33,869 nt of DNA, from NCBI GenBank assembly GCA_017303975.1, contig JAFLBG010000040.1, positions 1 through 33,869 of the forward strand, read 5' to 3'. Shown here piece by piece: positions 1-21,606 of this stretch (within the stretch, counting starts at the first letter, position 1; every line of letters starts with the position of its first letter). This DNA comes from Bacteroidota bacterium (GTDB lineage Bacteria > Bacteroidota > Bacteroidia > JAFLBG01). Below the pieces are notes generated by a model, which searched no databases, was not told the DNA's origin, and saw only the letters and a list, made by a program, of their open reading frames with translations. Made by a program: the position numbers and the translations under genes.

Positions 1-1352
1 ATAATTCAGCAAGTACGATAAACAGCAATAACAATTATTCCTATTCAGAAATAGGGGAATTGAAAAAGGATGTGTGGGATAGTATATCAAATATTGTAAG
101 AAGAGCAGATGGAAAAATACTTTCTATCACGAGAACAGCAGGTTGCACTCGCCCTAACCTATCTTACGATTACGATCCAATGGGTAAACGAATTGCTAAA
201 CATACCTTTGACAATGGCAATGCGTGGATACAAAGTGAGTACTACATAAAAGATGCAACAGGCAATACGATGAGTACGTATGTCTATAAAGATGGTTCGT
301 TTGCAAAAACGGAAGATCATTTATATGGCAGTAGTTCTTTAGGAATAATACAAGACAGTTTAGAAATGATTGGAGCGTATGTAGATACTGTTTATTTTAG
401 CCATGTGTTAGGCAAAAAGCAGTACAGTGGAAGTAATCATTTGGGTAACGTACTCAGCACATTCAGCGACATCAAAATCCCATTAGACCAAAACAGTAAC
501 GATACTATCGATGGATATATGGCAGACATTACTTCTGCAAAAGATTATGATGCTTTTGGGGAGTATTTAACAAACAGAAATTTCAGTAGAAATAAATATC
601 CTAACTCTTTTAACGGAAAAAGAGATGATGGTGAGATGTTTGGATGGCAAGACTATGGCTTCAGAAACTATATGAAAGCTGCTAGAAGGTTCGATAGGGT
701 TGATCCTTTATATCAAGAGTACTCTTACCTATCGACCTATCAATTTGGATCAAATATGCCAACAGTTGCAAAAGATATTGATGGATTAGAAGCCGATATT
801 AAATTTGAATATGCTAAATCAAATCAGTTTGTTGGTAATGGAATGGATGAAGAGGATAAGAAAATTTATCAAGAATCTTTTGATAATATTGTAACTCCTT
901 TTGCTACTTCTATATTAGTGGGACCTATTATAGGAAAAGCATTTCAGGGAGTAGGGTATTTATATAAGGCATATAAAACAGAAAATGCGATTGTAAAAGT
1001 ATCGAAAGCAAAACAAGTATTACAGAATGCAGAGAAAGGTGCTAATTTCGAAAAAGAAGGTATAAAAAAACTTTCCGAGACCCAAGATAATGTTGTTGAA
1101 CAAATAACAGTAAAATCAAATAAGTCAGGCGTAAAAACAAGACTTGATGCGGTTGGTACTGATAAAGCTACTGGCAAAGTAAAGCTTACTGATTTTAAGT
1201 CTTCCTCTACAGCCCCACTTACAAAAAATCAAAAAATAGGATATCCTGAGATTGAAGAAGCTGGGGGAATTATTATGGGGAAAGGAAAGCCTCCATATGT
1301 AGGTGGAACCGAAATTCCACCCACTTTAGTAGATATTATAAAACCTAAGTAA
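1..1352 (+). CDS. RHS core 3' part fused to PD-(D/E)XK-like nuclease tip (tip A), 5' end outside window
   Basis: The frame is open from base 3, so the gene begins upstream of the window; the TTG at 60 is internal. Codons up to about 554 encode YD-repeat/RHS core (YDPMGKRIAKH, SGSNHLGNVLSTF) and reach DYDAFG. After that comes the conserved linker (NSFNGKRDD, GWQDYGFRNY, ARRFDRVDP, DIDGLE) and then a variable tip from about base 790. The tip has a small hydrophobic stretch (about 895-960), then RLDAVGTDK...LTDFKSS. Asp at 1146 and Asp-x-Lys at 1191-1199 fit a PD-(D/E)XK core, and a following TKNQKIGYP resembles motifs of restriction-endonuclease-fold toxins. RHS proteins form shells that release C-terminal toxins into competitors. 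Nuclease activity is inferred from the motif. The immunity gene follows after 1 bp. The DNA before 553 is nearly the same as 23211-23763 of the second core, apart from patches such as 135-170. Confidence 0.88.
   Translation, partial: NSASTINSNNNYSYSEIGELKKDVWDSISNIVRRADGKILSITRTAGCTRPNLSYDYDPMGKRIAKHTFDNGNAWIQSEYYIKDATGNTMSTYVYKDGSFAKTEDHLYGSSSLGIIQDSLEMIGAYVDTVYFSHVLGKKQYSGSNHLGNVLSTFSDIKIPLDQNSNDTIDGYMADITSAKDYDAFGEYLTNRNFSRNKYPNSFNGKRDDGEMFGWQDYGFRNYMKAARRFDRVDPLYQEYSYLSTYQFGSNMPTVAKDIDGLEADIKFEYAKSNQFVGNGMDEEDKKIYQESFDNIVTPFATSILVGPIIGKAFQGVGYLYKAYKTENAIVKVSKAKQVLQNAEKGANFEKEGIKKLSETQDNVVEQITVKSNKSGVKTRLDAVGTDKATGKVKLTDFKSSSTAPLTKNQKIGYPEIEEAGGIIMGKGKPPYVGGTEIPPTLVDIIKPK
553..561 (+). other. 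Left attachment junction of the RHS-tip element (attL-like, CTTTTGGGG)
   Basis: CTTTTGGG here is followed by tip A. The same bases recur at 7886 (between the two units) and 15219 (before tip B). Upstream of 553 the sequence is resident RHS core; upstream of 7886 and 15219 it is element end. It lies in codons for Ala-Phe-Gly of DYDAFG. The 18 bases ending in CTTTTGGG at the element end and in the core differ at only three positions (AGATTA..AT.CTTTTGGG), as expected for paired att sites. The recombination role is inferred. Confidence 0.6.
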
Positions 1353-1353
1353 G

Positions 1354-1680
1354 ATGTCAATTATAGATAAAATTAAAATAGATGCCGTTGGCACAGATAA
1401 ATTAACTGGTGAAATAATTCTAACAATTTTTGACCATTTGGATTGGGAAAATGTCCAATTTCATTTAGAATCATTGCAGGATAAATTAAACTCATATATT
1501 GAATTTATTGAAGGGAAACAAGTTTTTGAAGACTATCCAGATAGTAAAGATGGAAGGTTAGTAATTGAGATTGTAAGTAAATATGAATATTCTACTGAAG
1601 GACTTGATTATCTAAAAAAAGTAAAACCAATTATTCAATCTATTGGAGCAGATGTAAGGCAAAGGCTTCATAAAGATTGA
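1354..1680 (+). CDS. Immunity protein for tip A, DUF6572-like
   Basis: A 108-residue soluble protein that starts one base after the tip A stop codon, the usual toxin-immunity arrangement. It contains DHLDWEN, HLESLQDKLNSYIEF and YPDS, which I recognise as typical of DUF6572 proteins. Its N-terminus (KIDAVGTDKLTGEIILTIF) closely matches the nuclease motif of the toxin (RLDAVGTDKATGKVKLTDF), but the catalytic-type Asp-x-Lys becomes Ile-Phe-Asp. It has no signal peptide or membrane segment, as expected for protection against a cytosolic nuclease. Binding to tip A is inferred from adjacency. Confidence 0.75.
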   Translation: MSIIDKIKIDAVGTDKLTGEIILTIFDHLDWENVQFHLESLQDKLNSYIEFIEGKQVFEDYPDSKDGRLVIEIVSKYEYSTEGLDYLKKVKPIIQSIGADVRQRLHKD

Positions 1681-1717
1681 GGTAACGCACCAAAACTATC
1701 TGAGCAATTTTAAAGAC

Positions 1718-1750
1718 AAAGGCTACCGAAAATCGGTAGCCTTTTGTTTT
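1718..1750 (+). terminator. Rho-independent terminator after immunity gene A
   Basis: A perfect 12-bp stem (AAAGGCTACCGA / TCGGTAGCCTTT, arms 1718-1729 and 1733-1744) with a 3-base loop is followed by TGTTTTT. It ends the tip A-immunity transcript and, being symmetric, could also stop the XRE operon arriving from the other strand. Confidence 0.85.
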
Positions 1751-1767
1751 TGTATTTATTTAAAGGG

Positions 1768-1798
1768 TTGTGTGTTGGCGCAAAGGTGTAGGAAAACC
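1768..1798 (+). other. Conserved cargo/recombinase-module boundary motif, copy in element 1
   Basis: The sequence beginning TTGTGTGTTGGCGCAAAGG and continuing TGTAGGAAAACC recurs with few changes at 16461-16490, in both cases just after the hairpin that follows an immunity gene and before the recombinase module. Everything on its left (tip, immunity) is unrelated between the two modules. It may be a joint at which tip-immunity cargo is exchanged. Its function is unknown. Confidence 0.5.
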
Positions 1799-1812
1799 AA
1801 CAATGGCAGTGG

Positions 1813-2190
1813 TTACGCGATTTTAACTTTTTTAATTTTTAGTTTTTTATCCGTTTCGTTGTACACGTATTTCGCTTTGTCCTGTCGAATTAACACATCC
1901 AGAGTTGTAATAAGCAGTTCTTTGTTATCAGCATTCATAGCTTGAATATCATCGAACTTATCAAGCCAGTTAGTGTCAATATTTTGAGAAATCCTTCCCG
2001 CAATAAAATCAAGCGACACATCCAATACATCAGTAATTTTAATTATTTCAGTCAGAGAAGGAATATATACATCCAGTTCAATAGAGTGCATCACATCCTC
2101 TGTAATTCCGGTTTTAAGAGCGATATCCGCAAGTGTTAACTTGCGCTGCTTACGAACAATAGTAATTCTATCACCGATAGTTAATACCAT
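1813..2190 (-). CDS. XRE-family HTH regulator, second gene of the divergent operon
   Basis: 125 residues. The N-terminal XRE helix-turn-helix spans roughly residues 6-62 (RITIVRKQRKLTLADIALKTG...SLTEIIKITDVLDVSLDFI). A basic, Lys-rich tail ends in KKLKIKKVKIA. It lies 2 bp downstream of another XRE gene, so the two are co-transcribed and divergent from the primase gene. Such pairs usually control phage- or element-type replication genes; here a role in holding the element quiet is inferred. The domain call is firm, the target is not known. Confidence 0.8.
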   Translation of the reverse strand: MVLTIGDRITIVRKQRKLTLADIALKTGITEDVMHSIELDVYIPSLTEIIKITDVLDVSLDFIAGRISQNIDTNWLDKFDDIQAMNADNKELLITTLDVLIRQDKAKYVYNETDKKLKIKKVKIA

Positions 2191-2192
2191 TT

Positions 2193-2561
2193 TTATGCAA
2201 CCAATTGTTGATGTATAGAGCTTTTAAAAATAAACCCATCGAGGAATTCAATCAGTAAGCCTTTTTTCTCTTCCGGCAGCTCTTCAATTTTCTTAAACTG
2301 TATAAGCAGGCGTTCATCCTTTAACATATCAGTCGCTTTATTATCAAGAGTACCATTCATTAAAAAATCCGGGCTAACCTCCAACGCTTTAGCTATCCTA
2401 TTAAGCACATCAGCCGAAGGCGCAGCGTCCCCACGCTCATAGCGACCAATGTTGGTATAATGCACCTTAGCTAGTTTAGCTAAATCCTGTTGCGAAACTC
2501 CTTTAGTTGTGCGAGCATCCTTTAAACGGGTAGCTAATGTTGCCTTTATCTGCTTTTTCAT
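2193..2561 (-). CDS. XRE-family HTH regulator, first gene of the divergent operon
   Basis: 122 residues. A clear XRE/Cro-CI helix-turn-helix spans about residues 10-68 (LKDARTTKGVSQQDLAKLAKVHYTNIGRYERGD...VLNRIAKALEVSPDFLM). The C-terminal part, with LIQFKKIEELPEEKKGLLIEFLDGFI, resembles the tail of phage-type repressors and may dimerise. It is transcribed away from the primase gene, sharing a 175-bp control region that contains a dyad. It most likely represses the primase-recombinase operon, its own operon or both; this is inferred from layout. Confidence 0.85.
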   Translation of the reverse strand: MKKQIKATLATRLKDARTTKGVSQQDLAKLAKVHYTNIGRYERGDAAPSADVLNRIAKALEVSPDFLMNGTLDNKATDMLKDERLLIQFKKIEELPEEKKGLLIEFLDGFIFKSSIHQQLVA

Positions 2562-2736
2562 ACTATCAATACTTTAATGTGAAAATACTTATTAACAGCA
2601 CAAAGATAGATTATGCGCACATAAAAGCATTGTTTTATGAAGCGCATGTGAATAACTTTCGTAAAGGTGCTATTTATTGATAATGCTAATAAGTTAAGTT
2701 TGTAGCGTAAACGCACAATTTAAAAATTATCAACAA
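2562..2736. promoter_or_regulatory. Divergent control region between XRE operon and primase operon
   Basis: An imperfect dyad, TATGCGCACATAAAA / TTTTATGAAGCGCAT, spans about 2612-2646 and could be an XRE operator. CTTATTAAC at 2588 and an inverted-like TTATTGATAATGCTAATAAG around 2674-2693 are further candidates. TAAGTTTG at 2695-2702 matches the Bacteroidota -7 form TAnnTTTG, 34 bases before the primase ATG. The spacing of the upstream TTG (2677-2679) is shorter than usual, so the -33 box is uncertain. Confidence 0.45.
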
Positions 2737-5430
2737 ATGGATATAAAAGACATCAAACAACAGCTTCCCATTGTAAAAGTGTTACAACAGTATCATCTTA
2801 AAATAGATAACAACAGGGCCTTGTGTCCCTTCCACAATGACAAAAGCCCGAGTTTACAAATCTATCCGGAAACTAATACTTATTGCTGCTTCAGTAGTAA
2901 CTGCACAGCCGGCACAGGCGACCAGATACAGTTTATAGAACTGTATGAAAAATGCACCAAGCATGAAGCCTTAGTAAAGGCAACAGAAATGATAACAGGA
3001 AATAGTCCGGCAATACCACTTAGTAAGGTAGCAGTATTACAAAAAATATTTGCCTACTTTAAAAATGCAATACCCAACAGCCCTATTGCCAAAGAGTATA
3101 TTAAAAGCAGGGCACTCGATTACGATAAACTGGAAATAGGCTACAACACGGCACAATTCCATCATGGCACAAGAAAGGATGAATACCTAATAAAAAGCTG
3201 TTTAGAAATAGGACTACTCCAAGACGAAGGCTTGGTAAGCAGAACAGGAGAAAAAGCCTATAAGCCTTTTGGAAAGTTTTGTATTGTGTTCCCATTAAAG
3301 AATAAACAAGGGCAAATTGTATCACTGTATTTTAGAAGCACAATTAATGATACTAACCAAAAGCATTACTACTTAAAAAACAGAGAGGGTTTATATCCTC
3401 ACTATCCAAAAACAGAAACAACAACATTAATACTAACAGAAAGTATCATAGACTGTGCTACGCTATTACAAAACCAATTGCCTTCCCATTGCTCGCTACT
3501 GGCTTGTTACGGAACAAATGGTTTAACCACAGAACACATGAAGGCAATCAGAGAATTAAAGAACCTGAAAGAAATAATCTTTGCCTTTGATATGGATGAA
3601 TCCGGGAAAGCAGCCACGTTAAAATATGCACATGAATTAAAAATTATGAATGAGCAATTAGAAATCAGCCGTATGGAGCTTCCCTGCAAGGATATAAACG
3701 AAACAGCTCAGGGGCATGACAGCAGCGTGTTTGAAGAACTGGTAAACAACAGAACTTTTCTTTTTCAATTGAAAAAAGAAACACAATTTTCAGAACCTGC
3801 AAACATACTTCCGGTAACTAATAAGCTAGACACTAGAAATAGTGAGCAGCTCCATTACAACACAGAAGCCCTGCAAGTAACACTATTAGGCGGTATCAGC
3901 TTACAAAATTTAGACAGGCTGCGCGTAACTATTTACCTGCGCAGGAATCCACATATCAATGCAACCCAAACCATTCGGCAAAACATAGATTTATACCAGG
4001 ACGATCTAGTAGAAAAATTTATCCGCAAGGCAGCTGAAAAATTAGACCACAGTACAACCCTTATCAGTAGCACCATTGCGGAACTCACAGAAGAACTGGA
4101 AGCATGGCGTATTGCACAAATAGAAACTAAAAAATTAACCAAGCCAGTTAGAAAAGAGCTAACCCACGAGGAAAGAGAAGCAGCACTACAGATGCTCCAA
4201 CAAAAAAACTTAATGGCTTGGACATTGGAGCAGTTGCAGCAAACAGGGATAATAGGAGAAACAGAAAACGCAGGAATTTTATTTACAGCAATGGTAAGCA
4301 GATTAAGTGCAGACCCTGTAAGCGTAATATCCTTAAGCCAAAGCGGAACAGGCAAAAGTTATTTACTGGAAAAAGTAGCCAAGTGTTTTCCAAAAGAAGA
4401 TATTATAGAAAACACACAGTTCACCGATAACAGCTTTTACTATTGGAAAGAAGGCATACGGGGAAAAATCATTTTAATAGAAGACATGGAAGGCGCACAG
4501 AATGTAGAATACCCGATGCGTGAATTAATCACAAAAAAATACATTACTAAAACGGTGGTACACAAAGACAGTAAAGGCAACCTGCAAACAGTACAACACA
4601 GAGTAGAAGGCCCGGCAACATTTTTGGGCTGTACTACGAAAGAAAAAATCTATGAGGACAATGCCAACAGGTGCGTATTAATATACCTGGACAACAGCAA
4701 AGAACAAGATCACAACGTAATGAACTATCAAAAGCAACTACGAGCCGGAATAATAAACGAAGTACGGGAAGAACAAATTAGAGAGAACCTCCAAAACATG
4801 CAGCGGTTATTACAATCAAGAAAAGTAATTAATCCGTATGCCCCACTAATTGATTTACCCGAAAGCATATTAAAACCAAGACGAAGCATTGGTATTTTAT
4901 TGTCCTTTATAGAAGCCATTACCCTGTACCATCAATACCAATGCACTACAAAAGATAATTGCTTAGAAGCGCACCCAAGCCATATAGAATGGGCGTTTAA
5001 ACTATTAAAAGAAAGTCTGTTCAGAAAGAGTGATGAGCTAAGTGCCGCAACACGAAACTTTTTAGAAAGCGTAAAAGCCATCTTACAAAAGGAAAAGAAA
5101 AGTTCATTTTATATGCAGCAGATACGATTAGCATTACACCTACATCCCAGAACTACACAGCGTTATTTATATGAACTGCAACAATACGGCTATCTGAAAA
5201 TAGCAGGAGGCAATAAATATAAAAAGGGCTACGAATATGAATTAACAGAACTCTCCCGGGATAATAACCTGCAAACTACCATAGAGAAGCACCTTGAACA
5301 AGTGATGCAAAAGATATGGAAAGCCTATGAAGAAAAGCATAAGAACGACAGTGCGACAGTAGTGCGACAAAACAACTTTGTCGCACTCAAACATAACAAT
5401 GGTAAGACTTTGGAAGCAGTGCGACAGTAA
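2737..5430 (+). CDS. CHC2 zinc-finger/Toprim primase fused to P-loop ATPase and winged helix
   Basis: 897 residues. A CHC2-type zinc finger (C30, H33, C50/C51, C56; CPFHNDKSPS...CCFSSNC) lies at residues 30-56. A Toprim domain follows, with LTES around residue 230 and FAFDMDESG around residue 285. The P-loop is SQSGTGKS (534-541), and a Walker B-like KIILIEDMEG lies about 45 residues further on. The C-terminal region has a likely winged helix (RLALHLHPRTTQRYLYELQQYGYLK). This is the make-up of a mobile-element replication protein that primes and unwinds DNA, so the excised unit may replicate itself. It is the first gene of an operon with two recombinases. The last 80 bases contain four AGTGCGACA repeats in different frames, so DNA function rather than protein explains them. 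Confidence 0.82.
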   Translation: MDIKDIKQQLPIVKVLQQYHLKIDNNRALCPFHNDKSPSLQIYPETNTYCCFSSNCTAGTGDQIQFIELYEKCTKHEALVKATEMITGNSPAIPLSKVAVLQKIFAYFKNAIPNSPIAKEYIKSRALDYDKLEIGYNTAQFHHGTRKDEYLIKSCLEIGLLQDEGLVSRTGEKAYKPFGKFCIVFPLKNKQGQIVSLYFRSTINDTNQKHYYLKNREGLYPHYPKTETTTLILTESIIDCATLLQNQLPSHCSLLACYGTNGLTTEHMKAIRELKNLKEIIFAFDMDESGKAATLKYAHELKIMNEQLEISRMELPCKDINETAQGHDSSVFEELVNNRTFLFQLKKETQFSEPANILPVTNKLDTRNSEQLHYNTEALQVTLLGGISLQNLDRLRVTIYLRRNPHINATQTIRQNIDLYQDDLVEKFIRKAAEKLDHSTTLISSTIAELTEELEAWRIAQIETKKLTKPVRKELTHEEREAALQMLQQKNLMAWTLEQLQQTGIIGETENAGILFTAMVSRLSADPVSVISLSQSGTGKSYLLEKVAKCFPKEDIIENTQFTDNSFYYWKEGIRGKIILIEDMEGAQNVEYPMRELITKKYITKTVVHKDSKGNLQTVQHRVEGPATFLGCTTKEKIYEDNANRCVLIYLDNSKEQDHNVMNYQKQLRAGIINEVREEQIRENLQNMQRLLQSRKVINPYAPLIDLPESILKPRRSIGILLSFIEAITLYHQYQCTTKDNCLEAHPSHIEWAFKLLKESLFRKSDELSAATRNFLESVKAILQKEKKSSFYMQQIRLALHLHPRTTQRYLYELQQYGYLKIAGGNKYKKGYEYELTELSRDNNLQTTIEKHLEQVMQKIWKAYEEKHKNDSATVVRQNNFVALKHNNGKTLEAVRQ
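5350..5426. repeat. Iteron-like cluster of AGTGCGACA (3 direct, 1 inverted)
   Basis: Nine-base copies lie at 5350-5358, 5361-5369 and 5418-5426, with the reverse complement at 5379-5387, all inside the 3' end of the primase gene. The second copy and the inverted copy face each other across 9 bases. The copies are read in different codon phases (Ser-Ala-Thr versus Val-Arg-Gln), so they are not a peptide repeat. They could be an origin, a recombinase accessory site or an operator for the recombinase genes that start 21 bp downstream of the primase stop. Confidence 0.6.
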
Positions 5431-5450
5431 ATAGTAAAAAAGGGACAGAC

Positions 5451-6341
5451 ATGGAACTAAAACAAATCCACTACAAACATTTTGTACTAAGCTTTAAAGA
5501 ATGGCTGCACATACTAGGCTACGGAGAAACCTGCGTTAACTCGTTTCCAAGAATGCTACAGGAATTTTTTTGTTGGCTGGAAGACAAAAACATACAAACC
5601 CTGTCGGAGGTTCAAACAGAGCATTCAGAAAGCTTTATAGAGTATCATAAAACACGAGCCAACAGAAGGAGAGCCGGAGGCATAAGTCCGGGACATATCA
5701 ACAGATATATAGAAGTGCTCAAAAAGTTTAACGAATATCTGAAGCAGGCAAAAAATTTTGAAATACCTCTAAAAATAGCACGACTGGAAGATGATCCCAT
5801 TAAAGAAATTGTTATCCTAACCATGGAAGAAATACAAGCTATCTATGGAGTAACCGATAACAGCCACTTTGGAATAAGAGACAGAGCCATGTTGTCAATT
5901 TACTACGGATGTGGATTACGGAAAGGAGAAGGTGTACAGCTAGATGTAGAAGATATATTAATAGAAAGGAAATTGGTGCATATTAAAAAAAGCAAAAACA
6001 ACTATGAACGCCAAATCCCTATAACAACAAGCAATTTAAACCACCTATTGCTTTACCTGCATAACATAAGACCATTACTACTTGCAGATAAAAGCAACGA
6101 GAATGCTCTGTTTGTAAGTGAAAGAGGACATCGAATCAGTAAAGATAGATTTTATCAAAGGCTGAAAATACTTTGCTTAAAAGCAGGAATAACAAAGGAT
6201 ATAGGTATACATACTTTACGGCACAGCATTGCAACCCACTTATTACAAAAGGGAATGGAACTGGAAAATATTGCCATGTTTTTAGGACATAAGTGTTTAG
6301 ACAGTACACAAATCTATACGCACATTCTTAATGAAGAATAG
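5451..6341 (+). CDS. Tyrosine recombinase 1 (catalytically complete)
   Basis: 296 residues. The N-terminal SAM-like core-binding domain covers about 1-105, with the RRRAGGISPGHINRYIEVLKKF patch, and the catalytic domain follows. Catalytic residues are visible: R157 in GLRKGE, Lys in the KKSKNNYER hairpin, H254 and R257 in HTLRHS, H280 in FLGHK, and nucleophile Y289 in IYTH. It would cut and rejoin DNA in a XerC/D-like way and is the best candidate to act at the CTTTTGGG junctions. It lies 20 bp after the primase and 3 bp before a second, degenerate recombinase, so all three are probably one transcript. Confidence 0.92.
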   Translation: MELKQIHYKHFVLSFKEWLHILGYGETCVNSFPRMLQEFFCWLEDKNIQTLSEVQTEHSESFIEYHKTRANRRRAGGISPGHINRYIEVLKKFNEYLKQAKNFEIPLKIARLEDDPIKEIVILTMEEIQAIYGVTDNSHFGIRDRAMLSIYYGCGLRKGEGVQLDVEDILIERKLVHIKKSKNNYERQIPITTSNLNHLLLYLHNIRPLLLADKSNENALFVSERGHRISKDRFYQRLKILCLKAGITKDIGIHTLRHSIATHLLQKGMELENIAMFLGHKCLDSTQIYTHILNEE

Positions 6342-6344
6342 CCC

Positions 6345-7244
6345 ATGAATACAGAATTAACAGTAGAAGAAATACTACAACATTTTGAAAACTGGCTACA
6401 CACAAGATACCGCTTAAACAGTGTACGAAATATTATAACCGCTGCGGTATCGCTCATGGAATGGTGTAAAGAAAAAAATATAAATCCTATACAGCTTAGC
6501 TATGCAGAGCTACTAGGCTATATACAGTTTTGCAGCTCAAATGGTAATGGTAAAACAACTATCAATCAGAAAATAACTGGACTCAAACATTTTTACAATT
6601 ACTTACAGCTACTTATGATACGGGATGAAAATCCGGTAGAAGAAATTAGAATACGAAATGCAACACGTAAAGTACTTGGTGATATTATTCCTTATGAAAC
6701 ACTGGAGAACCTATATGCTGCATATCCTTTAAACGGTGTCAATAGACAAAGGAACAAAGCCATTATAGGATTAATGGTCTATCAGGCTTTAACTACTGGT
6801 GAATTAGAAGCATTAGAGGTAAAAGATTTAAAACTGGAAGAAGGTAAAATTTTTATACCCAGTGTCAGCAGAAGCAATAGCCGTACATTAAAATTAGAAG
6901 CACAGCAATTAATACACTTACAAAATTATCTATTAAAGATACGTCCACTATTTATGGCTGTAAGCAGGAAACAAATAACTAAATTATTTATGAGCAGGGG
7001 GAAAAGCTCTAAGCTTGGCAATAGTCAATTTAGATTAATAAATGAAATACGCAAAGTAAATCCAGGTATAAAAGATTTAAGACAAATCCGGGCAAGTGTA
7101 ATAGCACACTGGTATAAGCTGCATCATGCAAGGCAAGTACAATACATGGCAGGACATCGTTATGTAAGCAGTACAGAGCACTATAGAACAAACAGAATAG
7201 AAACCCTTCAGGAGCAGTTAGAAAAAATACATCCTATACAATAA
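6345..7244 (+). CDS. Tyrosine recombinase 2 (partner, lacks catalytic Arg I and His)
   Basis: 299 residues with the same two-domain layout as its upstream neighbour. The first catalytic Arg is replaced (LTTGEL, Thr at residue 150, where the partner has LRKGE). The HxxR box reads RQIRAS, so Arg II remains but the His is Arg. AGHR and a Tyr in SSTEHYR remain. This pattern suggests a weakened or non-cleaving subunit that pairs with recombinase 1, as in other systems that use two tyrosine recombinases. The equivalent gene of the downstream module (19753-20628) has lost the Tyr as well. The assignment to the family is firm; the partner role is inferred. Confidence 0.85.
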   Translation: MNTELTVEEILQHFENWLHTRYRLNSVRNIITAAVSLMEWCKEKNINPIQLSYAELLGYIQFCSSNGNGKTTINQKITGLKHFYNYLQLLMIRDENPVEEIRIRNATRKVLGDIIPYETLENLYAAYPLNGVNRQRNKAIIGLMVYQALTTGELEALEVKDLKLEEGKIFIPSVSRSNSRTLKLEAQQLIHLQNYLLKIRPLFMAVSRKQITKLFMSRGKSSKLGNSQFRLINEIRKVNPGIKDLRQIRASVIAHWYKLHHARQVQYMAGHRYVSSTEHYRTNRIETLQEQLEKIHPIQ

Positions 7245-7266
7245 TCAAGAGTAACACTCGAGCTCG

Positions 7267-7321
7267 ATTCCGATTGTAAAACTTTGGTGGTGTGCTGCTG
7301 GTGTGGTATTACAATCGGAAT
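7267..7321. repeat. Inverted repeat I
   Basis: Perfect 13-bp arms ATTCCGATTGTAA (7267-7279) and TTACAATCGGAAT (7309-7321) around a 29-base GT-rich loop, 22 bases after the recombinase 2 stop codon. The tract that would follow a terminator stem is absent. Confidence 0.75.
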
Positions 7322-7420
7322 GAGCATCCAAGCGGACTACAAAAAAACTTTCTTGCAATCATATTATCCCGTGCGGAAGTAGCACTACCTACATCTTTTA
7401 TTGTGCGTGGTCTGCGGGGC

Positions 7421-7496
7421 TATTTAACATAATGTGCTTATAGGACAGGTTCCCGGCTGCAAGCCCTGCTCCTATAAGATCACATTATGTTAAAAT
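7421..7496. repeat. Inverted repeat II
   Basis: Long arms: TATTTAACATAATGTG plus CTTATAGGA (7421-7445) pair with TCCTATAAG plus CACATTATGTTAAAATA (7470-7497), with one 2-base bulge. Inside, CAGG/CCTG and GGC/GCC extend the stem, leaving a TGCAA loop. It is among the strongest hairpins in the window. Confidence 0.8.
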
Positions 7497-7506
7497 AGTA
7501 TTTGGG

Positions 7507-7643
7507 TAGTTTTTATGGCGCATCTTTTTGTTGTGTGGTAGTGCAGCTTATTGTTTTTTTGTTTGTCAGCTAGTAGGCGACAATTAAACAAACAAAACAA
7601 TGTGCTGCTTTGTGTTGGTACAAAAAGTGTGCGATAAAAACTA
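7507..7643. repeat. Inverted repeat III (137-base nested imperfect dyad)
   Basis: The outer arms TAGTTTTTATGGCGCATC / GTGTGCGATAAAAACTA and the inner arms GCAGCTTATTGTTTT / AACAAACAAAACAAT..GCTGC form a long nested dyad centred near 7575. Pairing is interrupted but spans almost the whole interval. Confidence 0.6.
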
Positions 7644-7665
7644 CAGAAGCGTAAAGGCGCGGGGA

Positions 7666-7721
7666 ACAAGCCAAAAGACCGTGCAAGCCCTGAGGTACGA
7701 AGGGCGGGGCTTTTGGCTTGT
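7666..7721. repeat. Inverted repeat IV
   Basis: Perfect 12-bp arms ACAAGCCAAAAG (7666-7677) and CTTTTGGCTTGT (7710-7721). The 32-base loop has its own stem, AGCCCT/AGGGC. The right arm contains CTTTTGG, the first seven bases of the attachment core, which may matter if the same protein binds both. Confidence 0.7.
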
Positions 7722-7777
7722 GGGGCTTATCGGTAAAGGGCTGTAGGTTTTTATACGTATGACATTTTGTTGATAAC

Positions 7778-7821
7778 ATTTTCTTTTTTCAATTGAAAAG
7801 ACTTCAACTGAAAAAGAAAAT
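7778..7821. repeat. Inverted repeat V, next to the attachment junction
   Basis: The arms ATTTTCTTTTTTCAATTGAA (7778-7797) and TTCAACTGAAAAAGAAAAT (7803-7821) surround 5 bases, 65 bases before the CTTTTGGG junction. The position suits a recombinase or accessory-protein binding dyad; a hairpin with an A/T-rich stem is the alternative. Confidence 0.6.
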
Positions 7822-7866
7822 TAAATACATTTATTAAATCATAAAAAACAAAAACAATACAGTTCT

Positions 7867-8685
7867 TTGATATTAGATTACTATCCTTTTGGGGAGTATT
7901 TAACAAACAGAAATTTCAGTAGAAATAAATATCCTAACTCTTTTAACGGAAAAAGAGATGATGGTGAGATGTTTGGATGGCAAGACTATGGCTTCAGAAA
8001 CTATATGAAAGCTGCTAGAAGGTTCGATAGGGTTGATCCTTTATATCAAGAGTACTCTTACCTATCGACCTATCAATTTGGATCAAATATGCCAACAGTT
8101 GCAAAAGATATTGATGGATTAGAAGCCGATATTAAATTTGAATATGCTAAATCAAATCAGTTTGTTGGTAATGGAATGGATGAAGAGGATAAGAAAATTT
8201 ATCAAGAATCTTTTGATAATATTGTAACTCCTTTTGCTACTTCTATATTAGTGGGACCTATTATAGGAAAAGCATTTCAGGGAGTAGGGTATTTATATAA
8301 GGCATATAAAACAGAAAATGCGATTGTAAAAGTATCGAAAGCAAAACAAGTATTACAGAATGCAGAGAAAGGTGCTAATTTCGAAAAAGAAGGTATAAAA
8401 AAACTTTCCGAGACCCAAGATAATGTTGTTGAACAAATAACAGTAAAATCAAATAAGTCAGGCGTAAAAACAAGACTTGATGCGGTTGGTACTGATAAAG
8501 CTACTGGCAAAGTAAAGCTTACTGATTTTAAGTCTTCCTCTACAGCCCCACTTACAAAAAATCAAAAAATAGGATATCCTGAGATTGAAGAAGCTGGGGG
8601 AATTATTATGGGGAAAGGAAAGCCTCCATATGTAGGTGGAACCGAAATTCCACCCACTTTAGTAGATATTATAAAACCTAAGTAA
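7867..8685 (+). CDS. Displaced tip A, second copy (no own start or core)
   Basis: From 7886 the sequence repeats tip A of 553-1352 without a visible change: RHS linker, DIDGLE, hydrophobic stretch and the RLDAVG...DFKSS nuclease motif. Instead of an RHS core it is preceded by the element end, which supplies ILDYYPFG in the same frame. The first possible start is TTG at 7867, with no convincing promoter or ribosome site. I expect it to be silent where it stands and to become active only when joined to a core. See the first copy for the domain reading. Confidence 0.7.
   Translation: MILDYYPFGEYLTNRNFSRNKYPNSFNGKRDDGEMFGWQDYGFRNYMKAARRFDRVDPLYQEYSYLSTYQFGSNMPTVAKDIDGLEADIKFEYAKSNQFVGNGMDEEDKKIYQESFDNIVTPFATSILVGPIIGKAFQGVGYLYKAYKTENAIVKVSKAKQVLQNAEKGANFEKEGIKKLSETQDNVVEQITVKSNKSGVKTRLDAVGTDKATGKVKLTDFKSSSTAPLTKNQKIGYPEIEEAGGIIMGKGKPPYVGGTEIPPTLVDIIKPK
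7886..7894 (+). other. Junction between tandem units (attP-like, CTTTTGGGG)
   Basis: The right end of copy 1 meets the left end of copy 2 here. In a head-to-tail tandem this junction has the same sequence as the joint of an excised circle, so it shows the presumed attP: TATTAGATTACTATC then CTTTTGGGG then AGTATTTAAC. Confidence 0.6.
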
Positions 8686-8686
8686 G

Positions 8687-9013
8687 ATGTCAATTATAGA
8701 TAAAATTAAAATAGATGCCGTTGGCACAGATAAATTAACTGGTGAAATAATTCTAACAATTTTTGACCATTTGGATTGGGAAAATGTCCAATTTCATTTA
8801 GAATCATTGCAGGATAAATTAAACTCATATATTGAATTTATTGAAGGGAAACAAGTTTTTGAAGACTATCCAGATAGTAAAGATGGAAGGTTAGTAATTG
8901 AGATTGTAAGTAAATATGAATATTCTACTGAAGGACTTGATTATCTAAAAAAAGTAAAACCAATTATTCAATCTATTGGAGCAGATGTAAGGCAAAGGCT
9001 TCATAAAGATTGA
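8687..9013 (+). CDS. DUF6572-like immunity protein, second copy
   Basis: Same 108-residue protein as at 1354-1680, again 1 bp after the tip A stop. Unlike the tip, this copy has its own ATG and could still be translated if transcribed, giving an extra dose of immunity. Confidence 0.72.
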   Translation: MSIIDKIKIDAVGTDKLTGEIILTIFDHLDWENVQFHLESLQDKLNSYIEFIEGKQVFEDYPDSKDGRLVIEIVSKYEYSTEGLDYLKKVKPIIQSIGADVRQRLHKD

Positions 9014-9050
9014 GGTAACGCACCAAAACTATCTGAGCAATTTTAAAGAC

Positions 9051-9083
9051 AAAGGCTACCGAAAATCGGTAGCCTTTTGTTTT
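9051..9083 (+). terminator. Rho-independent terminator, second copy
   Basis: Same 12-bp perfect stem, 3-base loop and T-rich tail as at 1718-1750. Confidence 0.85.
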
Positions 9084-9100
9084 TGTATTTATTTAAAGGG

Positions 9101-9131
9101 TTGTGTGTTGGCGCAAAGGTGTAGGAAAACC
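9101..9131 (+). other. Cargo/module boundary motif, second copy
   Basis: Same sequence as at 1768-1798; related to 16461-16490 of the diverged module. Confidence 0.5.
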
Positions 9132-9145
9132 AACAATGGCAGTGG

Positions 9146-9523
9146 TTACGCGATTTTAACTTTTTTAATTTTTAGTTTTTTATCCGTTTCGTTGTACACG
9201 TATTTCGCTTTGTCCTGTCGAATTAACACATCCAGAGTTGTAATAAGCAGTTCTTTGTTATCAGCATTCATAGCTTGAATATCATCGAACTTATCAAGCC
9301 AGTTAGTGTCAATATTTTGAGAAATCCTTCCCGCAATAAAATCAAGCGACACATCCAATACATCAGTAATTTTAATTATTTCAGTCAGAGAAGGAATATA
9401 TACATCCAGTTCAATAGAGTGCATCACATCCTCTGTAATTCCGGTTTTAAGAGCGATATCCGCAAGTGTTAACTTGCGCTGCTTACGAACAATAGTAATT
9501 CTATCACCGATAGTTAATACCAT
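9146..9523 (-). CDS. XRE-family HTH regulator (125 aa), second copy
   Basis: Same protein as at 1813-2190: N-terminal XRE fold and Lys-rich tail, second in a two-gene minus-strand operon. Two copies would double the regulator dose in this cell. Confidence 0.8.
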   Translation of the reverse strand: MVLTIGDRITIVRKQRKLTLADIALKTGITEDVMHSIELDVYIPSLTEIIKITDVLDVSLDFIAGRISQNIDTNWLDKFDDIQAMNADNKELLITTLDVLIRQDKAKYVYNETDKKLKIKKVKIA

Positions 9524-9525
9524 TT

Positions 9526-9894
9526 TTATGCAACCAATTGTTGATGTATAGAGCTTTTAAAAATAAACCCATCGAGGAATTCAATCAGTAAGCCTTTTTT
9601 CTCTTCCGGCAGCTCTTCAATTTTCTTAAACTGTATAAGCAGGCGTTCATCCTTTAACATATCAGTCGCTTTATTATCAAGAGTACCATTCATTAAAAAA
9701 TCCGGGCTAACCTCCAACGCTTTAGCTATCCTATTAAGCACATCAGCCGAAGGCGCAGCGTCCCCACGCTCATAGCGACCAATGTTGGTATAATGCACCT
9801 TAGCTAGTTTAGCTAAATCCTGTTGCGAAACTCCTTTAGTTGTGCGAGCATCCTTTAAACGGGTAGCTAATGTTGCCTTTATCTGCTTTTTCAT
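9526..9894 (-). CDS. XRE-family HTH regulator (122 aa), second copy
   Basis: Same protein as at 2193-2561, with the SQQDLAKLAKVHYTNIGRYERGD helix-turn-helix. It is divergent from the second primase gene across an identical 175-bp control region (9895-10069). Confidence 0.85.
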   Translation of the reverse strand: MKKQIKATLATRLKDARTTKGVSQQDLAKLAKVHYTNIGRYERGDAAPSADVLNRIAKALEVSPDFLMNGTLDNKATDMLKDERLLIQFKKIEELPEEKKGLLIEFLDGFIFKSSIHQQLVA

Positions 9895-10069
9895 ACTATC
9901 AATACTTTAATGTGAAAATACTTATTAACAGCACAAAGATAGATTATGCGCACATAAAAGCATTGTTTTATGAAGCGCATGTGAATAACTTTCGTAAAGG
10001 TGCTATTTATTGATAATGCTAATAAGTTAAGTTTGTAGCGTAAACGCACAATTTAAAAATTATCAACAA
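9895..10069. promoter_or_regulatory. Divergent control region, second copy
   Basis: Repeats 2562-2736: the GCGCA dyad lies at about 9945-9979 and the TAAGTTTG -7-like box at 10028-10035. Confidence 0.45.
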
Positions 10070-12763
10070 ATGGATATAAAAGACATCAAACAACAGCTTC
10101 CCATTGTAAAAGTGTTACAACAGTATCATCTTAAAATAGATAACAACAGGGCCTTGTGTCCCTTCCACAATGACAAAAGCCCGAGTTTACAAATCTATCC
10201 GGAAACTAATACTTATTGCTGCTTCAGTAGTAACTGCACAGCCGGCACAGGCGACCAGATACAGTTTATAGAACTGTATGAAAAATGCACCAAGCATGAA
10301 GCCTTAGTAAAGGCAACAGAAATGATAACAGGAAATAGTCCGGCAATACCACTTAGTAAGGTAGCAGTATTACAAAAAATATTTGCCTACTTTAAAAATG
10401 CAATACCCAACAGCCCTATTGCCAAAGAGTATATTAAAAGCAGGGCACTCGATTACGATAAACTGGAAATAGGCTACAACACGGCACAATTCCATCATGG
10501 CACAAGAAAGGATGAATACCTAATAAAAAGCTGTTTAGAAATAGGACTACTCCAAGACGAAGGCTTGGTAAGCAGAACAGGAGAAAAAGCCTATAAGCCT
10601 TTTGGAAAGTTTTGTATTGTGTTCCCATTAAAGAATAAACAAGGGCAAATTGTATCACTGTATTTTAGAAGCACAATTAATGATACTAACCAAAAGCATT
10701 ACTACTTAAAAAACAGAGAGGGTTTATATCCTCACTATCCAAAAACAGAAACAACAACATTAATACTAACAGAAAGTATCATAGACTGTGCTACGCTATT
10801 ACAAAACCAATTGCCTTCCCATTGCTCGCTACTGGCTTGTTACGGAACAAATGGTTTAACCACAGAACACATGAAGGCAATCAGAGAATTAAAGAACCTG
10901 AAAGAAATAATCTTTGCCTTTGATATGGATGAATCCGGGAAAGCAGCCACGTTAAAATATGCACATGAATTAAAAATTATGAATGAGCAATTAGAAATCA
11001 GCCGTATGGAGCTTCCCTGCAAGGATATAAACGAAACAGCTCAGGGGCATGACAGCAGCGTGTTTGAAGAACTGGTAAACAACAGAACTTTTCTTTTTCA
11101 ATTGAAAAAAGAAACACAATTTTCAGAACCTGCAAACATACTTCCGGTAACTAATAAGCTAGACACTAGAAATAGTGAGCAGCTCCATTACAACACAGAA
11201 GCCCTGCAAGTAACACTATTAGGCGGTATCAGCTTACAAAATTTAGACAGGCTGCGCGTAACTATTTACCTGCGCAGGAATCCACATATCAATGCAACCC
11301 AAACCATTCGGCAAAACATAGATTTATACCAGGACGATCTAGTAGAAAAATTTATCCGCAAGGCAGCTGAAAAATTAGACCACAGTACAACCCTTATCAG
11401 TAGCACCATTGCGGAACTCACAGAAGAACTGGAAGCATGGCGTATTGCACAAATAGAAACTAAAAAATTAACCAAGCCAGTTAGAAAAGAGCTAACCCAC
11501 GAGGAAAGAGAAGCAGCACTACAGATGCTCCAACAAAAAAACTTAATGGCTTGGACATTGGAGCAGTTGCAGCAAACAGGGATAATAGGAGAAACAGAAA
11601 ACGCAGGAATTTTATTTACAGCAATGGTAAGCAGATTAAGTGCAGACCCTGTAAGCGTAATATCCTTAAGCCAAAGCGGAACAGGCAAAAGTTATTTACT
11701 GGAAAAAGTAGCCAAGTGTTTTCCAAAAGAAGATATTATAGAAAACACACAGTTCACCGATAACAGCTTTTACTATTGGAAAGAAGGCATACGGGGAAAA
11801 ATCATTTTAATAGAAGACATGGAAGGCGCACAGAATGTAGAATACCCGATGCGTGAATTAATCACAAAAAAATACATTACTAAAACGGTGGTACACAAAG
11901 ACAGTAAAGGCAACCTGCAAACAGTACAACACAGAGTAGAAGGCCCGGCAACATTTTTGGGCTGTACTACGAAAGAAAAAATCTATGAGGACAATGCCAA
12001 CAGGTGCGTATTAATATACCTGGACAACAGCAAAGAACAAGATCACAACGTAATGAACTATCAAAAGCAACTACGAGCCGGAATAATAAACGAAGTACGG
12101 GAAGAACAAATTAGAGAGAACCTCCAAAACATGCAGCGGTTATTACAATCAAGAAAAGTAATTAATCCGTATGCCCCACTAATTGATTTACCCGAAAGCA
12201 TATTAAAACCAAGACGAAGCATTGGTATTTTATTGTCCTTTATAGAAGCCATTACCCTGTACCATCAATACCAATGCACTACAAAAGATAATTGCTTAGA
12301 AGCGCACCCAAGCCATATAGAATGGGCGTTTAAACTATTAAAAGAAAGTCTGTTCAGAAAGAGTGATGAGCTAAGTGCCGCAACACGAAACTTTTTAGAA
12401 AGCGTAAAAGCCATCTTACAAAAGGAAAAGAAAAGTTCATTTTATATGCAGCAGATACGATTAGCATTACACCTACATCCCAGAACTACACAGCGTTATT
12501 TATATGAACTGCAACAATACGGCTATCTGAAAATAGCAGGAGGCAATAAATATAAAAAGGGCTACGAATATGAATTAACAGAACTCTCCCGGGATAATAA
12601 CCTGCAAACTACCATAGAGAAGCACCTTGAACAAGTGATGCAAAAGATATGGAAAGCCTATGAAGAAAAGCATAAGAACGACAGTGCGACAGTAGTGCGA
12701 CAAAACAACTTTGTCGCACTCAAACATAACAATGGTAAGACTTTGGAAGCAGTGCGACAGTAA
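10070..12763 (+). CDS. CHC2/Toprim primase-ATPase, second copy
   Basis: Same 897-residue protein as at 2737-5430, with the zinc finger, Toprim and P-loop all intact. It leads a second, complete primase-recombinase operon. Confidence 0.82.
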   Translation: MDIKDIKQQLPIVKVLQQYHLKIDNNRALCPFHNDKSPSLQIYPETNTYCCFSSNCTAGTGDQIQFIELYEKCTKHEALVKATEMITGNSPAIPLSKVAVLQKIFAYFKNAIPNSPIAKEYIKSRALDYDKLEIGYNTAQFHHGTRKDEYLIKSCLEIGLLQDEGLVSRTGEKAYKPFGKFCIVFPLKNKQGQIVSLYFRSTINDTNQKHYYLKNREGLYPHYPKTETTTLILTESIIDCATLLQNQLPSHCSLLACYGTNGLTTEHMKAIRELKNLKEIIFAFDMDESGKAATLKYAHELKIMNEQLEISRMELPCKDINETAQGHDSSVFEELVNNRTFLFQLKKETQFSEPANILPVTNKLDTRNSEQLHYNTEALQVTLLGGISLQNLDRLRVTIYLRRNPHINATQTIRQNIDLYQDDLVEKFIRKAAEKLDHSTTLISSTIAELTEELEAWRIAQIETKKLTKPVRKELTHEEREAALQMLQQKNLMAWTLEQLQQTGIIGETENAGILFTAMVSRLSADPVSVISLSQSGTGKSYLLEKVAKCFPKEDIIENTQFTDNSFYYWKEGIRGKIILIEDMEGAQNVEYPMRELITKKYITKTVVHKDSKGNLQTVQHRVEGPATFLGCTTKEKIYEDNANRCVLIYLDNSKEQDHNVMNYQKQLRAGIINEVREEQIRENLQNMQRLLQSRKVINPYAPLIDLPESILKPRRSIGILLSFIEAITLYHQYQCTTKDNCLEAHPSHIEWAFKLLKESLFRKSDELSAATRNFLESVKAILQKEKKSSFYMQQIRLALHLHPRTTQRYLYELQQYGYLKIAGGNKYKKGYEYELTELSRDNNLQTTIEKHLEQVMQKIWKAYEEKHKNDSATVVRQNNFVALKHNNGKTLEAVRQ
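12683..12759. repeat. Iteron-like AGTGCGACA cluster, second copy
   Basis: Copies at 12683, 12694 and 12751 are direct and the one at 12712 is inverted, as in copy 1. Confidence 0.6.
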
Positions 12764-12783
12764 ATAGTAAAAAAGGGACAGAC

Positions 12784-13674
12784 ATGGAACTAAAACAAAT
12801 CCACTACAAACATTTTGTACTAAGCTTTAAAGAATGGCTGCACATACTAGGCTACGGAGAAACCTGCGTTAACTCGTTTCCAAGAATGCTACAGGAATTT
12901 TTTTGTTGGCTGGAAGACAAAAACATACAAACCCTGTCGGAGGTTCAAACAGAGCATTCAGAAAGCTTTATAGAGTATCATAAAACACGAGCCAACAGAA
13001 GGAGAGCCGGAGGCATAAGTCCGGGACATATCAACAGATATATAGAAGTGCTCAAAAAGTTTAACGAATATCTGAAGCAGGCAAAAAATTTTGAAATACC
13101 TCTAAAAATAGCACGACTGGAAGATGATCCCATTAAAGAAATTGTTATCCTAACCATGGAAGAAATACAAGCTATCTATGGAGTAACCGATAACAGCCAC
13201 TTTGGAATAAGAGACAGAGCCATGTTGTCAATTTACTACGGATGTGGATTACGGAAAGGAGAAGGTGTACAGCTAGATGTAGAAGATATATTAATAGAAA
13301 GGAAATTGGTGCATATTAAAAAAAGCAAAAACAACTATGAACGCCAAATCCCTATAACAACAAGCAATTTAAACCACCTATTGCTTTACCTGCATAACAT
13401 AAGACCATTACTACTTGCAGATAAAAGCAACGAGAATGCTCTGTTTGTAAGTGAAAGAGGACATCGAATCAGTAAAGATAGATTTTATCAAAGGCTGAAA
13501 ATACTTTGCTTAAAAGCAGGAATAACAAAGGATATAGGTATACATACTTTACGGCACAGCATTGCAACCCACTTATTACAAAAGGGAATGGAACTGGAAA
13601 ATATTGCCATGTTTTTAGGACATAAGTGTTTAGACAGTACACAAATCTATACGCACATTCTTAATGAAGAATAG
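12784..13674 (+). CDS. Tyrosine recombinase 1, second copy
   Basis: Same 296-residue catalytically complete recombinase as at 5451-6341 (R157, H254, R257, H280, Y289). Confidence 0.92.
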   Translation: MELKQIHYKHFVLSFKEWLHILGYGETCVNSFPRMLQEFFCWLEDKNIQTLSEVQTEHSESFIEYHKTRANRRRAGGISPGHINRYIEVLKKFNEYLKQAKNFEIPLKIARLEDDPIKEIVILTMEEIQAIYGVTDNSHFGIRDRAMLSIYYGCGLRKGEGVQLDVEDILIERKLVHIKKSKNNYERQIPITTSNLNHLLLYLHNIRPLLLADKSNENALFVSERGHRISKDRFYQRLKILCLKAGITKDIGIHTLRHSIATHLLQKGMELENIAMFLGHKCLDSTQIYTHILNEE

Positions 13675-13677
13675 CCC

Positions 13678-14577
13678 ATGAATACAGAATTAACAGTAGA
13701 AGAAATACTACAACATTTTGAAAACTGGCTACACACAAGATACCGCTTAAACAGTGTACGAAATATTATAACCGCTGCGGTATCGCTCATGGAATGGTGT
13801 AAAGAAAAAAATATAAATCCTATACAGCTTAGCTATGCAGAGCTACTAGGCTATATACAGTTTTGCAGCTCAAATGGTAATGGTAAAACAACTATCAATC
13901 AGAAAATAACTGGACTCAAACATTTTTACAATTACTTACAGCTACTTATGATACGGGATGAAAATCCGGTAGAAGAAATTAGAATACGAAATGCAACACG
14001 TAAAGTACTTGGTGATATTATTCCTTATGAAACACTGGAGAACCTATATGCTGCATATCCTTTAAACGGTGTCAATAGACAAAGGAACAAAGCCATTATA
14101 GGATTAATGGTCTATCAGGCTTTAACTACTGGTGAATTAGAAGCATTAGAGGTAAAAGATTTAAAACTGGAAGAAGGTAAAATTTTTATACCCAGTGTCA
14201 GCAGAAGCAATAGCCGTACATTAAAATTAGAAGCACAGCAATTAATACACTTACAAAATTATCTATTAAAGATACGTCCACTATTTATGGCTGTAAGCAG
14301 GAAACAAATAACTAAATTATTTATGAGCAGGGGGAAAAGCTCTAAGCTTGGCAATAGTCAATTTAGATTAATAAATGAAATACGCAAAGTAAATCCAGGT
14401 ATAAAAGATTTAAGACAAATCCGGGCAAGTGTAATAGCACACTGGTATAAGCTGCATCATGCAAGGCAAGTACAATACATGGCAGGACATCGTTATGTAA
14501 GCAGTACAGAGCACTATAGAACAAACAGAATAGAAACCCTTCAGGAGCAGTTAGAAAAAATACATCCTATACAATAA
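13678..14577 (+). CDS. Tyrosine recombinase 2, second copy
   Basis: Same 299-residue degenerate partner as at 6345-7244, with Thr in place of the first catalytic Arg and RQIR in place of HxxR. Confidence 0.85.
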   Translation: MNTELTVEEILQHFENWLHTRYRLNSVRNIITAAVSLMEWCKEKNINPIQLSYAELLGYIQFCSSNGNGKTTINQKITGLKHFYNYLQLLMIRDENPVEEIRIRNATRKVLGDIIPYETLENLYAAYPLNGVNRQRNKAIIGLMVYQALTTGELEALEVKDLKLEEGKIFIPSVSRSNSRTLKLEAQQLIHLQNYLLKIRPLFMAVSRKQITKLFMSRGKSSKLGNSQFRLINEIRKVNPGIKDLRQIRASVIAHWYKLHHARQVQYMAGHRYVSSTEHYRTNRIETLQEQLEKIHPIQ

Positions 14578-15199
14578 TCAAGAGTAACACTCGAGCTCGA
14601 TTCCGATTGTAAAACTTTGGTGGTGTGCTGCTGGTGTGGTATTACAATCGGAATGAGCATCCAAGCGGACTACAAAAAAACTTTCTTGCAATCATATTAT
14701 CCCGTGCGGAAGTAGCACTACCTACATCTTTTATTGTGCGTGGTCTGCGGGGCTATTTAACATAATGTGCTTATAGGACAGGTTCCCGGCTGCAAGCCCT
14801 GCTCCTATAAGATCACATTATGTTAAAATAGTATTTGGGTAGTTTTTATGGCGCATCTTTTTGTTGTGTGGTAGTGCAGCTTATTGTTTTTTTGTTTGTC
14901 AGCTAGTAGGCGACAATTAAACAAACAAAACAATGTGCTGCTTTGTGTTGGTACAAAAAGTGTGCGATAAAAACTACAGAAGCGTAAAGGCGCGGGGAAC
15001 AAGCCAAAAGACCGTGCAAGCCCTGAGGTACGAAGGGCGGGGCTTTTGGCTTGTGGGGCTTATCGGTAAAGGGCTGTAGGTTTTTATACGTATGACATTT
15101 TGTTGATAACATTTTCTTTTTTCAATTGAAAAGACTTCAACTGAAAAAGAAAATTAAATACATTTATTAAATCATAAAAAACAAAAACAATACAGTTCT
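14578..15199. other. Strongly folded non-coding right end, second copy
   Basis: The same five inverted repeats as in copy 1, at 14600-14654, 14754-14830, 14840-14976, 14999-15054 and 15111-15154, followed by the AT-rich run into the junction at 15219. No gene is seen here. Confidence 0.6.
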
Positions 15200-16099: not shown

Positions 16100-16109
16100 A
16101 ACAAGTTAT

Positions 16110-16406: not shown

Positions 16407-16430
16407 AAAATAAGGTCGTGATCTGATTGT

Positions 16431-16458
16431 CACCTGATTTTTATTGTTAAATCAGGTG
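16431..16458 (+). terminator. Hairpin after immunity B, possible terminator
   Basis: Perfect 10-bp arms CACCTGATTT / AAATCAGGTG with an 8-base loop lie 24 bases after the immunity stop. The tail (GCTTGTGTGT) is only weakly T-rich. It holds the same place as the terminator in element 1, just before the boundary motif. Confidence 0.55.
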
Positions 16459-16460
16459 GC

Positions 16461-16490: not shown

Positions 16491-16494
16491 GGCT

Positions 16495-21598: not shown

Positions 21599-21606
21599 TA
21601 AACTTA

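Follow-up and report, generated by a model that had tools for sequence, protein, structure and literature searches.

Conserved DNA hairpins at the right end of Rhs-tip elements in Bacteroidota are candidate folded sites for an Xer-like recombinase pair

What does a dense cluster of hairpins do at the end of a mobile element? The question is raised by a non-coding block at positions 7245-7866 of a 33,869-nucleotide stretch of DNA from a Bacteroidota bacterium (contig JAFLBG010000040.1 of assembly GCA_017303975.1; hereafter the window). The block begins right after the stop codon (7244) of Rec2, the second of two adjacent genes encoding Xer-like recombinases, and contains no open reading frame (ORF) longer than 69 amino acids. 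The original prediction, made from the letters of the window, described five successive inverted repeats, including a nested dyad, that fill the space between Rec2 and the junction of the element. All five were located. The mobile element in question integrates site-specifically and delivers Rhs toxin tips, and the block forms its structured right end. It does start directly after Rec2, but the true junction is an 8-bp sequence, CTTTTGGG, at 7886-7893 and not at 7866. As argued below from comparison of related sequences, the hairpins are quite possibly folded single-strand sites for the Rec1/Rec2 pair of the element, a view we hold tentatively.

Results

Folding, conservation and covariation of the hairpins

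The minimum free energy (MFE) of the whole block, folded as the plus DNA strand, is -121 kcal/mol compared with -69 +/- 6 for shuffled sequences (z -8.7), while the minus strand (-110.6, z -10.9) and the block as RNA (-211, z -8.5) give similar departures. No shuffle equalled the block in any of the three foldings. Taken singly, with mononucleotide shuffles and DNA parameters, the hairpins termed H1, II and I (Table 1) have z scores of -4.8, -7.9 and -11.0, respectively, and the segments 7660-7730 and 7778-7828 have scores of -4.2 and -6.7.

Homologous hairpins are present at the right ends of relatives in which Rec2 itself is no more than 35-45% identical. Among 30 aligned copies of hairpin II, 86.6% of stem cells are paired versus 77.0% after shuffling, a value reached by 0/500 shuffles; the covariation score is 0.288 against 0.109 (again 0/500), and 12 of the 25 stem pairs have changed on both sides. 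Hairpin I (22 aligned) displays 93.9% pairing and a covariation of 0.472 versus 0.166, and H1 (9 aligned) 96.9% pairing and 0.330 versus 0.124. Sliding the partner by 1-3 columns reduces the score of II to 0.01-0.06, and abolishes covariation for II, I and H1 alike. The stems of H1 are widely divergent in sequence, its flanks, AGCTCGAT...ATGAGCATCC, and a bulged G being constant. Thus, the homologous right ends fold and change in a strongly compensatory manner in all three hairpins, so that the refuting outcome named in the original prediction did not arise.

Covariance models detected hairpin II in 37 of the 51 loci having at least 1.5 kb beyond Rec2. It is located within 4 kb 3' of Rec2 or, failing that, 5-7 kb upstream, at the expected end of a preceding element. 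Hairpin I was found in more than 30 loci and H1 in ~17. A regular expression failed to recover hairpin I, for which blastn and then a covariance model were used instead; in the window the match to this model is strand-specific (106.7 versus 30.3 bits). A scan of MFE residuals in 150-nt windows recovered the hairpins in only some loci. The homology breakpoints of related right ends often fall at the loops of hairpin II but were not used as evidence of recombination, because hypervariable loops explain them equally well.

Selection on DNA rather than RNA

In pairs that switch between Watson-Crick types, G.U accounts for 2.0% (hairpin II) and 4.1% (hairpin I) of cases, whereas the small signal recognition particle (SRP) RNA, taken from the same clade and aligned with an identical tool, has 14.4%. 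The rarity of G.U indicates that selection keeps Watson-Crick pairs, and so acts on DNA and not on RNA. These data bear on the structured RNA offered as one candidate by the original prediction, or a regulatory leader or terminator array, which could account for the strong folding as RNA and for the location of the block downstream of an operon. Such an RNA is very improbable in view of the G.U shares, the occurrence of the hairpins in both polarities and the lack of a T-run behind H1, II and I; in addition, an Rfam search of the block returned no match near the gathering score. That the stems vary yet stay complementary, and that single-base bulges are kept, is better explained by folding of a strand or by cruciform extrusion than by a site read in duplex form.

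dif-like arms and a recombinase pair with one degenerate member

From loop to base, each arm of hairpin II carries a TATAA-type box that a spacer separates from a TTATGTTAA-type box. Of 60 arms, 51 have a 6-bp spacer, seven a 7-bp spacer and one a 5-bp spacer, with one arm unparsed; the window has one arm each of 5 and 7. In the window the 5' arm holds ATTTAACATAAT, the XerD half of Escherichia coli dif (from the MG1655 record), and across the family the arms match E. coli dif at a mean of 17.4 of 28 positions versus 12.4 for shuffled arms. When the stem folds the two arms build a single dif-like site, the centre of which is a Watson-Crick pair in just 4 of 30 hairpins, while the neighbouring pairs covary. 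A pattern search of the genome that carries the window revealed no convincing host dif, so two candidate dif sites found in other genomes are the basis for judging own versus host recombinase; these contain CGCATAA instead of a TATAA inner box. The hairpin box ATTATGTTAC resembles the right-end sequence ATTAGATTAC, but we claim no relationship, because the two face opposite ways with respect to the crossover and coding constrains the letters.

The closest structures for Rec1 and Rec2 are XerD and XerC/XerA-like recombinases, and the predicted model of Rec2 adopts an Xer fold with moderate confidence (predicted template modelling score, pTM, 0.57). Catalytic positions were scored against those of E. 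coli XerD. On this basis all six positions of Rec1 are intact in 107/107 relatives, one gapped row aside. Of 111 Rec2 sequences, by contrast, 102 have lost Arg I (9 keep it) and only 11 keep His II, while Arg II, His III and Tyr are retained. Rec2 therefore nearly always lacks the full R-K-H-R-H-Y set of a catalytic tyrosine recombinase, although its fold and sequence are Xer-like. Judged by sequence, Rec2 is a family-wide degenerate tyrosine recombinase that sits next to an intact Rec1.

Site-specific integration and tandem arrays

The segment 553-7893 is identical to the stretch 7,333 bp downstream, revealing a perfect tandem of a 7,333-bp element that spans 553-15226. The hairpin block is present twice because the whole element is duplicated (100% identity), and DNA and covariance searches of the genome identified no further copy beyond these two in the window. 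The 8 bp CTTTTGGG is common to all three junctions and is part of the codons of the Rhs (D)YYPFG motif, the upstream half of which comes from the target at the left end and from the element right end, TTGATATTAGATTACTATCC, at the other junctions. An intact homologue of the target site is present in the same window (the rhs gene at 22202-24763). That the tandem might be an assembly error was weighed and rejected: like arrays occur in loci L073, L093, L106, L115 and L123, and in L093 and L123 the copies show small differences.

In these five loci and in L092 the tandem repeats have a period of 6.3-8.0 kb, exact or nearly so. Several junctions coincide in position, the sequence being GATTACTATCC and then GGCGGG, or GATTACTTTTC and then CTTTGG, which encode (D)YYPFG, (D)YFSGG and similar motifs. 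Site-specific integration at these Rhs motif codons is therefore a property of the family, and not of the window only. The recurring arrays suggest stacked, exchangeable Rhs tips.

A Rec2 profile search of genome contigs yielded 434 relatives, of which 73 loci, nearly all labelled Bacteroidota, were taken. A helicase gene adjoins the recombinases in 68 of these 73, and most loci consist of helicase-Rec1-Rec2 plus variable cargo, for example ORF6N-like, DUF1016-like or Fic-like genes (cargo assigned by reading of the sequences). Among 149 genomes surveyed, 17 have a Rec2 relative and 8 of these carry hairpin II, versus 5 of the 132 others (Fisher p 5e-6). There is no sign of a phage, as no Rec2 relative was confirmed in viral contigs (none in IMG/VR) and phage records gave just two remote matches of ~22% identity. 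Plasmids displayed no DNA similarity to the element.

Discussion

Interpretation of the hairpins

If the hairpins are folded sites for Rec1/Rec2, helicase action or replication would expose single strands, and a Rec1/Rec2 heterodimer would bind folded hairpin II, the stem of which would rebuild one dif-like core site with Xer boxes flanking a 5-7-nt spacer and an unpaired centre. Hairpins I and H1 would flank and position hairpin II. Rec1 alone is expected to cut, because Rec2 is without Arg I and His II; one strand pair would be exchanged and replication would finish the product, as for CTXphi attP(+) and integron attC. On a folded strand a second exchange is abortive (PMC8946536), and we infer that a pair with one active member would suit a single-strand substrate for this reason.

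The folded recombinase substrate proposed by the original prediction is thus strengthened by covariation, the unpaired centre, the dif-like boxes with their 6-bp spacer and the adjacent Xer-like genes, but it is not an attC site, and the crossover lies hundreds of base pairs away. This distance is the first of several observations that weigh against the proposal. In the window ~390 bp separate hairpin II from the crossover at YYPFG; elsewhere the last hairpin is typically 150-230 bp from the junction. No product of recombination within a hairpin was seen, the array junctions being at YYPFG/YYPGG codons 150-400 bp past the hairpins, and crossovers 0.2-0.6 kb from the hairpins do not demonstrate an attC-style exchange. 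Binding and cutting of the hairpins, and their relation to the YYPFG crossover, are inferred. Furthermore, the polarity of hairpin I varies: it is minus in most loci but plus in the window, in L038, L057 and L122, and beside IIb. Hairpin II is not universal, as some elements have only I or H1, while some hairpins II stand alone with no recombinase genes nearby. Finally, the two Rec1/Rec2 loci without a helicase match (L045 and L055) also lack II, which suits an origin of replication equally well.

Such an origin, or a single-strand initiation signal at which the helicase, with its own or a host primase, starts synthesis on a circular form, is unlikely but the main rival. The order of repressor gene(s), primase-helicase and 3' stem-loops resembles that of pRN1 (PMC4234260), [I-II] units often form an inverted pair with one per strand, the helicase is a near-constant neighbour of the recombinases, and folding at the DNA level fits as well as it does under recombination. 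The primase-used origin put forward in the original prediction keeps some probability, but hairpin II is retained by 21 of the 28 well-covered elements whose helicase ORF lacks a primase domain. Nor does an origin account for the pair of dif-like boxes with their constant 6-bp spacer, or for the conserved central mismatch. It is rather improbable that the block is instead a double-stranded platform, in which the inverted arms are duplex sites for Rec1/Rec2 or for host XerCD, acting in accessory binding or dimer resolution, and the symmetry reflects two facing sites. The arms can indeed be read as complete dif-like sites in duplex form, and resolution would be useful to elements that are often in tandem. 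Against this, sequence changes freely in the H1 stems and in the outer stem of I yet complementarity persists, which a sequence-reading protein would not need, conserved single-base bulges make sense only in a folded strand, and the CGCATAA inner box of the two candidate host dif sites differs from the TATAA of the hairpins.

Comparison with known systems

To our knowledge, very few systems use folded single-strand substrates of tyrosine recombinases. In CTXphi attP(+) the inverted dif-like sites attP1 and attP2 are folded in single-stranded DNA (PMC3089051), and hairpin II shares with it two inverted dif-like sites with Xer-type boxes and ~6-bp centres, brought into one stem with an imperfect centre, as well as the expectation that one active recombinase of two cuts (PMC3089051). 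CTXphi, however, encodes no recombinase and crosses over within the folded site at host dif through host XerCD, whereas the elements described here lie in rhs genes at YYPFG, encode Rec1/Rec2 and carry the extra hairpins I and H1. The likeness to integron attC extends to an imperfect hairpin with two recombinase boxes, an unpaired central spacer, extrahelical bases and a variable terminal loop, and to promoterless cassettes in arrays (PMC8946536). In contrast to attC, in which the crossover is in the hairpin (R box) and the bottom strand is used, crossover here is outside the hairpin, polarity is not fixed, the boxes are dif-like and each cassette has its own recombinases. The pRN1 stem-loop origin likewise combines repressor and primase-helicase genes with a ~100-nt stem-loop downstream (PMC4234260), although most hairpin-bearing elements here have no primase domain and their stems carry dif-like boxes.

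The single-strand initiation signals ssiA and ssiB of RSF1010 are a further analogue of an origin. The nearest biology is that of the recombinase-associated acquired interbacterial defence (rAID) islands of Bacteroidales, in which a tyrosine recombinase lies beside immunity-gene arrays with conserved intergenic motifs (PMC12247911); these islands are described as having one recombinase and orphan immunity arrays, while the present elements combine a tip with a helicase and two recombinases and are inserted inside rhs. Microvirus proviruses integrated at dif in Bacteroidetes likewise use dif-like sequences, and in some of them a further copy lies close to one end (PMC3091885), but they have no recombinase of their own. 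Searches of the open literature, with most subscription journals outside their reach, returned no account of the hairpins or of Rhs-tip elements carrying this set of genes.

It is conceivable, albeit doubtful, that these elements represent a folded-single-strand recombination system beyond attC and CTXphi attP(+), namely self-mobile, array-forming Rhs toxin-tip cassettes of Bacteroidota whose dif-like hairpins are processed by a heterodimer of active and dead Xer-like proteins with a dedicated helicase. Were this so, a phylum-wide folded-substrate system with its own recombinase pair would drive toxin-tip replacement, providing a site-specific mechanism for a process usually ascribed to homologous recombination. 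Because Rec2 has lost catalytic residues throughout the family, the idea of a single strand exchange is directly testable. Even if the hairpins are replication signals, they constitute a large conserved family of structured DNA with no description in the open literature searched.

Other features of the window and of related loci

Table 1. Positions of the element, its genes, junctions and hairpins in the window
Feature	Position	Strand	Basis and details
Rhs end fused in frame with element-borne C-terminal tip (putative toxin tip)	60-1352	+	ORF; same tip again at 7867-8685
Left junction core CTTTTGGG, coding ..FG of Rhs YDAFG	553-560	+	motif uninterrupted in rhs gene 22202-24763
Element copy 1 (7,333 bp), Rhs tip to right end	553-7885	+	+7333 identity; boundaries are CTTTTGGG
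Putative immunity gene, DUF6572	1354-1680	+	Pfam PF20212, E 2e-32; role from position
Two HTH regulators (1813-2190, 2193-2561)	1813-2561	-	Pfam HTH_3
Primase-helicase, 897 aa: CHC2 zinc finger, DnaG N, Toprim, then P-loop part	2737-5430	+	Pfam PF01807, PF13155
Rec1, complete Xer-like tyrosine recombinase	5451-6341	+	Pfam PF00589, E 2.8e-39; XerD 1a0p, E 1e-27
Rec2, Xer-fold recombinase without Arg I and His II	6345-7244	+	Pfam, structure comparison, catalytic alignment, model
Hairpin H1: GCTC-G-AT(variable stem)AT-GAGCATCC, bulged G conserved	7261-7329	+	10/18 pairs changed on both sides; arms 7267-7282/7306-7321 (16 nt, 94%)
Hairpin II: two inverted dif-like arms, 2-nt central bulge	7419-7499	+	covariance model, R1 E 5e-5; arms 7423-7436/7481-7494 (14 nt, perfect)
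Hairpin I (nested dyad), conserved asymmetric bulges	7504-7649	+	23/32 pairs changed on both sides; covariance model, R2 E 2e-20; outer dyad 7506-7528/7622-7644, inner pair 7554-7566/7588-7600
GC-rich hairpin, 15-nt arms 7666-7680/7707-7721 (93%)	7666-7721	+	inverted repeat; conservation not established
AT-rich palindrome TTTTCTTTTTTCAATTG...CAACTGAAAAAGAAAA	~7778-7822	+	folding; similar ones near right ends of L057, L058
Right end TTGATATTAGATTACTATCC then TTTTGGG, restoring (D)YYPFG in frame	7867-7893	+	sequence
Element copy 2, perfect tandem	7886-15218	+	+7333 identity; same ORFs
Second identical hairpin block	14578-15199	+	100% identity to 7245-7866

Downstream of the tandem, positions 15227-20628 contain a third, distinct tip followed by a gene of its own, a helicase that has no primase domain and a second Rec1/Rec2 pair (18809-20628); no hairpin II was detected in this region. 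It looks like an older element displaced by newer ones. Directly 3' of its Rec pair are two genes (20672-22013) that appear ATPase-like/STAS-like by eye, and a cargo gene related to them also lies 3' of Rec2 in L056. Other palindromes, GCGCGGATTTGCAATCCGTGC, are located at 16420-16560 and resemble what we take to be repeats frequent across Bacteroidota genomes.

Hairpins II with no Rec1/Rec2 within several kb are present at L156:5280-5377, L161:8353-8437 and L192:6268-6340, and further lone copies at L193:6479-6566, L194:4281-4380 and L195:3361-3456. Part of hairpin I persists in L193 and L194, and in both the hairpin is near a thermonuclease-like gene and a gene of 267 amino acids (MARQKGLVKYSG.. 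and MAKQTGLLRYSG.., respectively). The lone hairpins may be remnants, or belong to elements mobilised in trans. A short conserved motif, AAAATGAAACAACCGCAGGGCGTTAG, is found between hairpins IIa and IIb (L123, ~6253-6285, and the right ends of L115, L093 and L073), and could be the start of a very short peptide.
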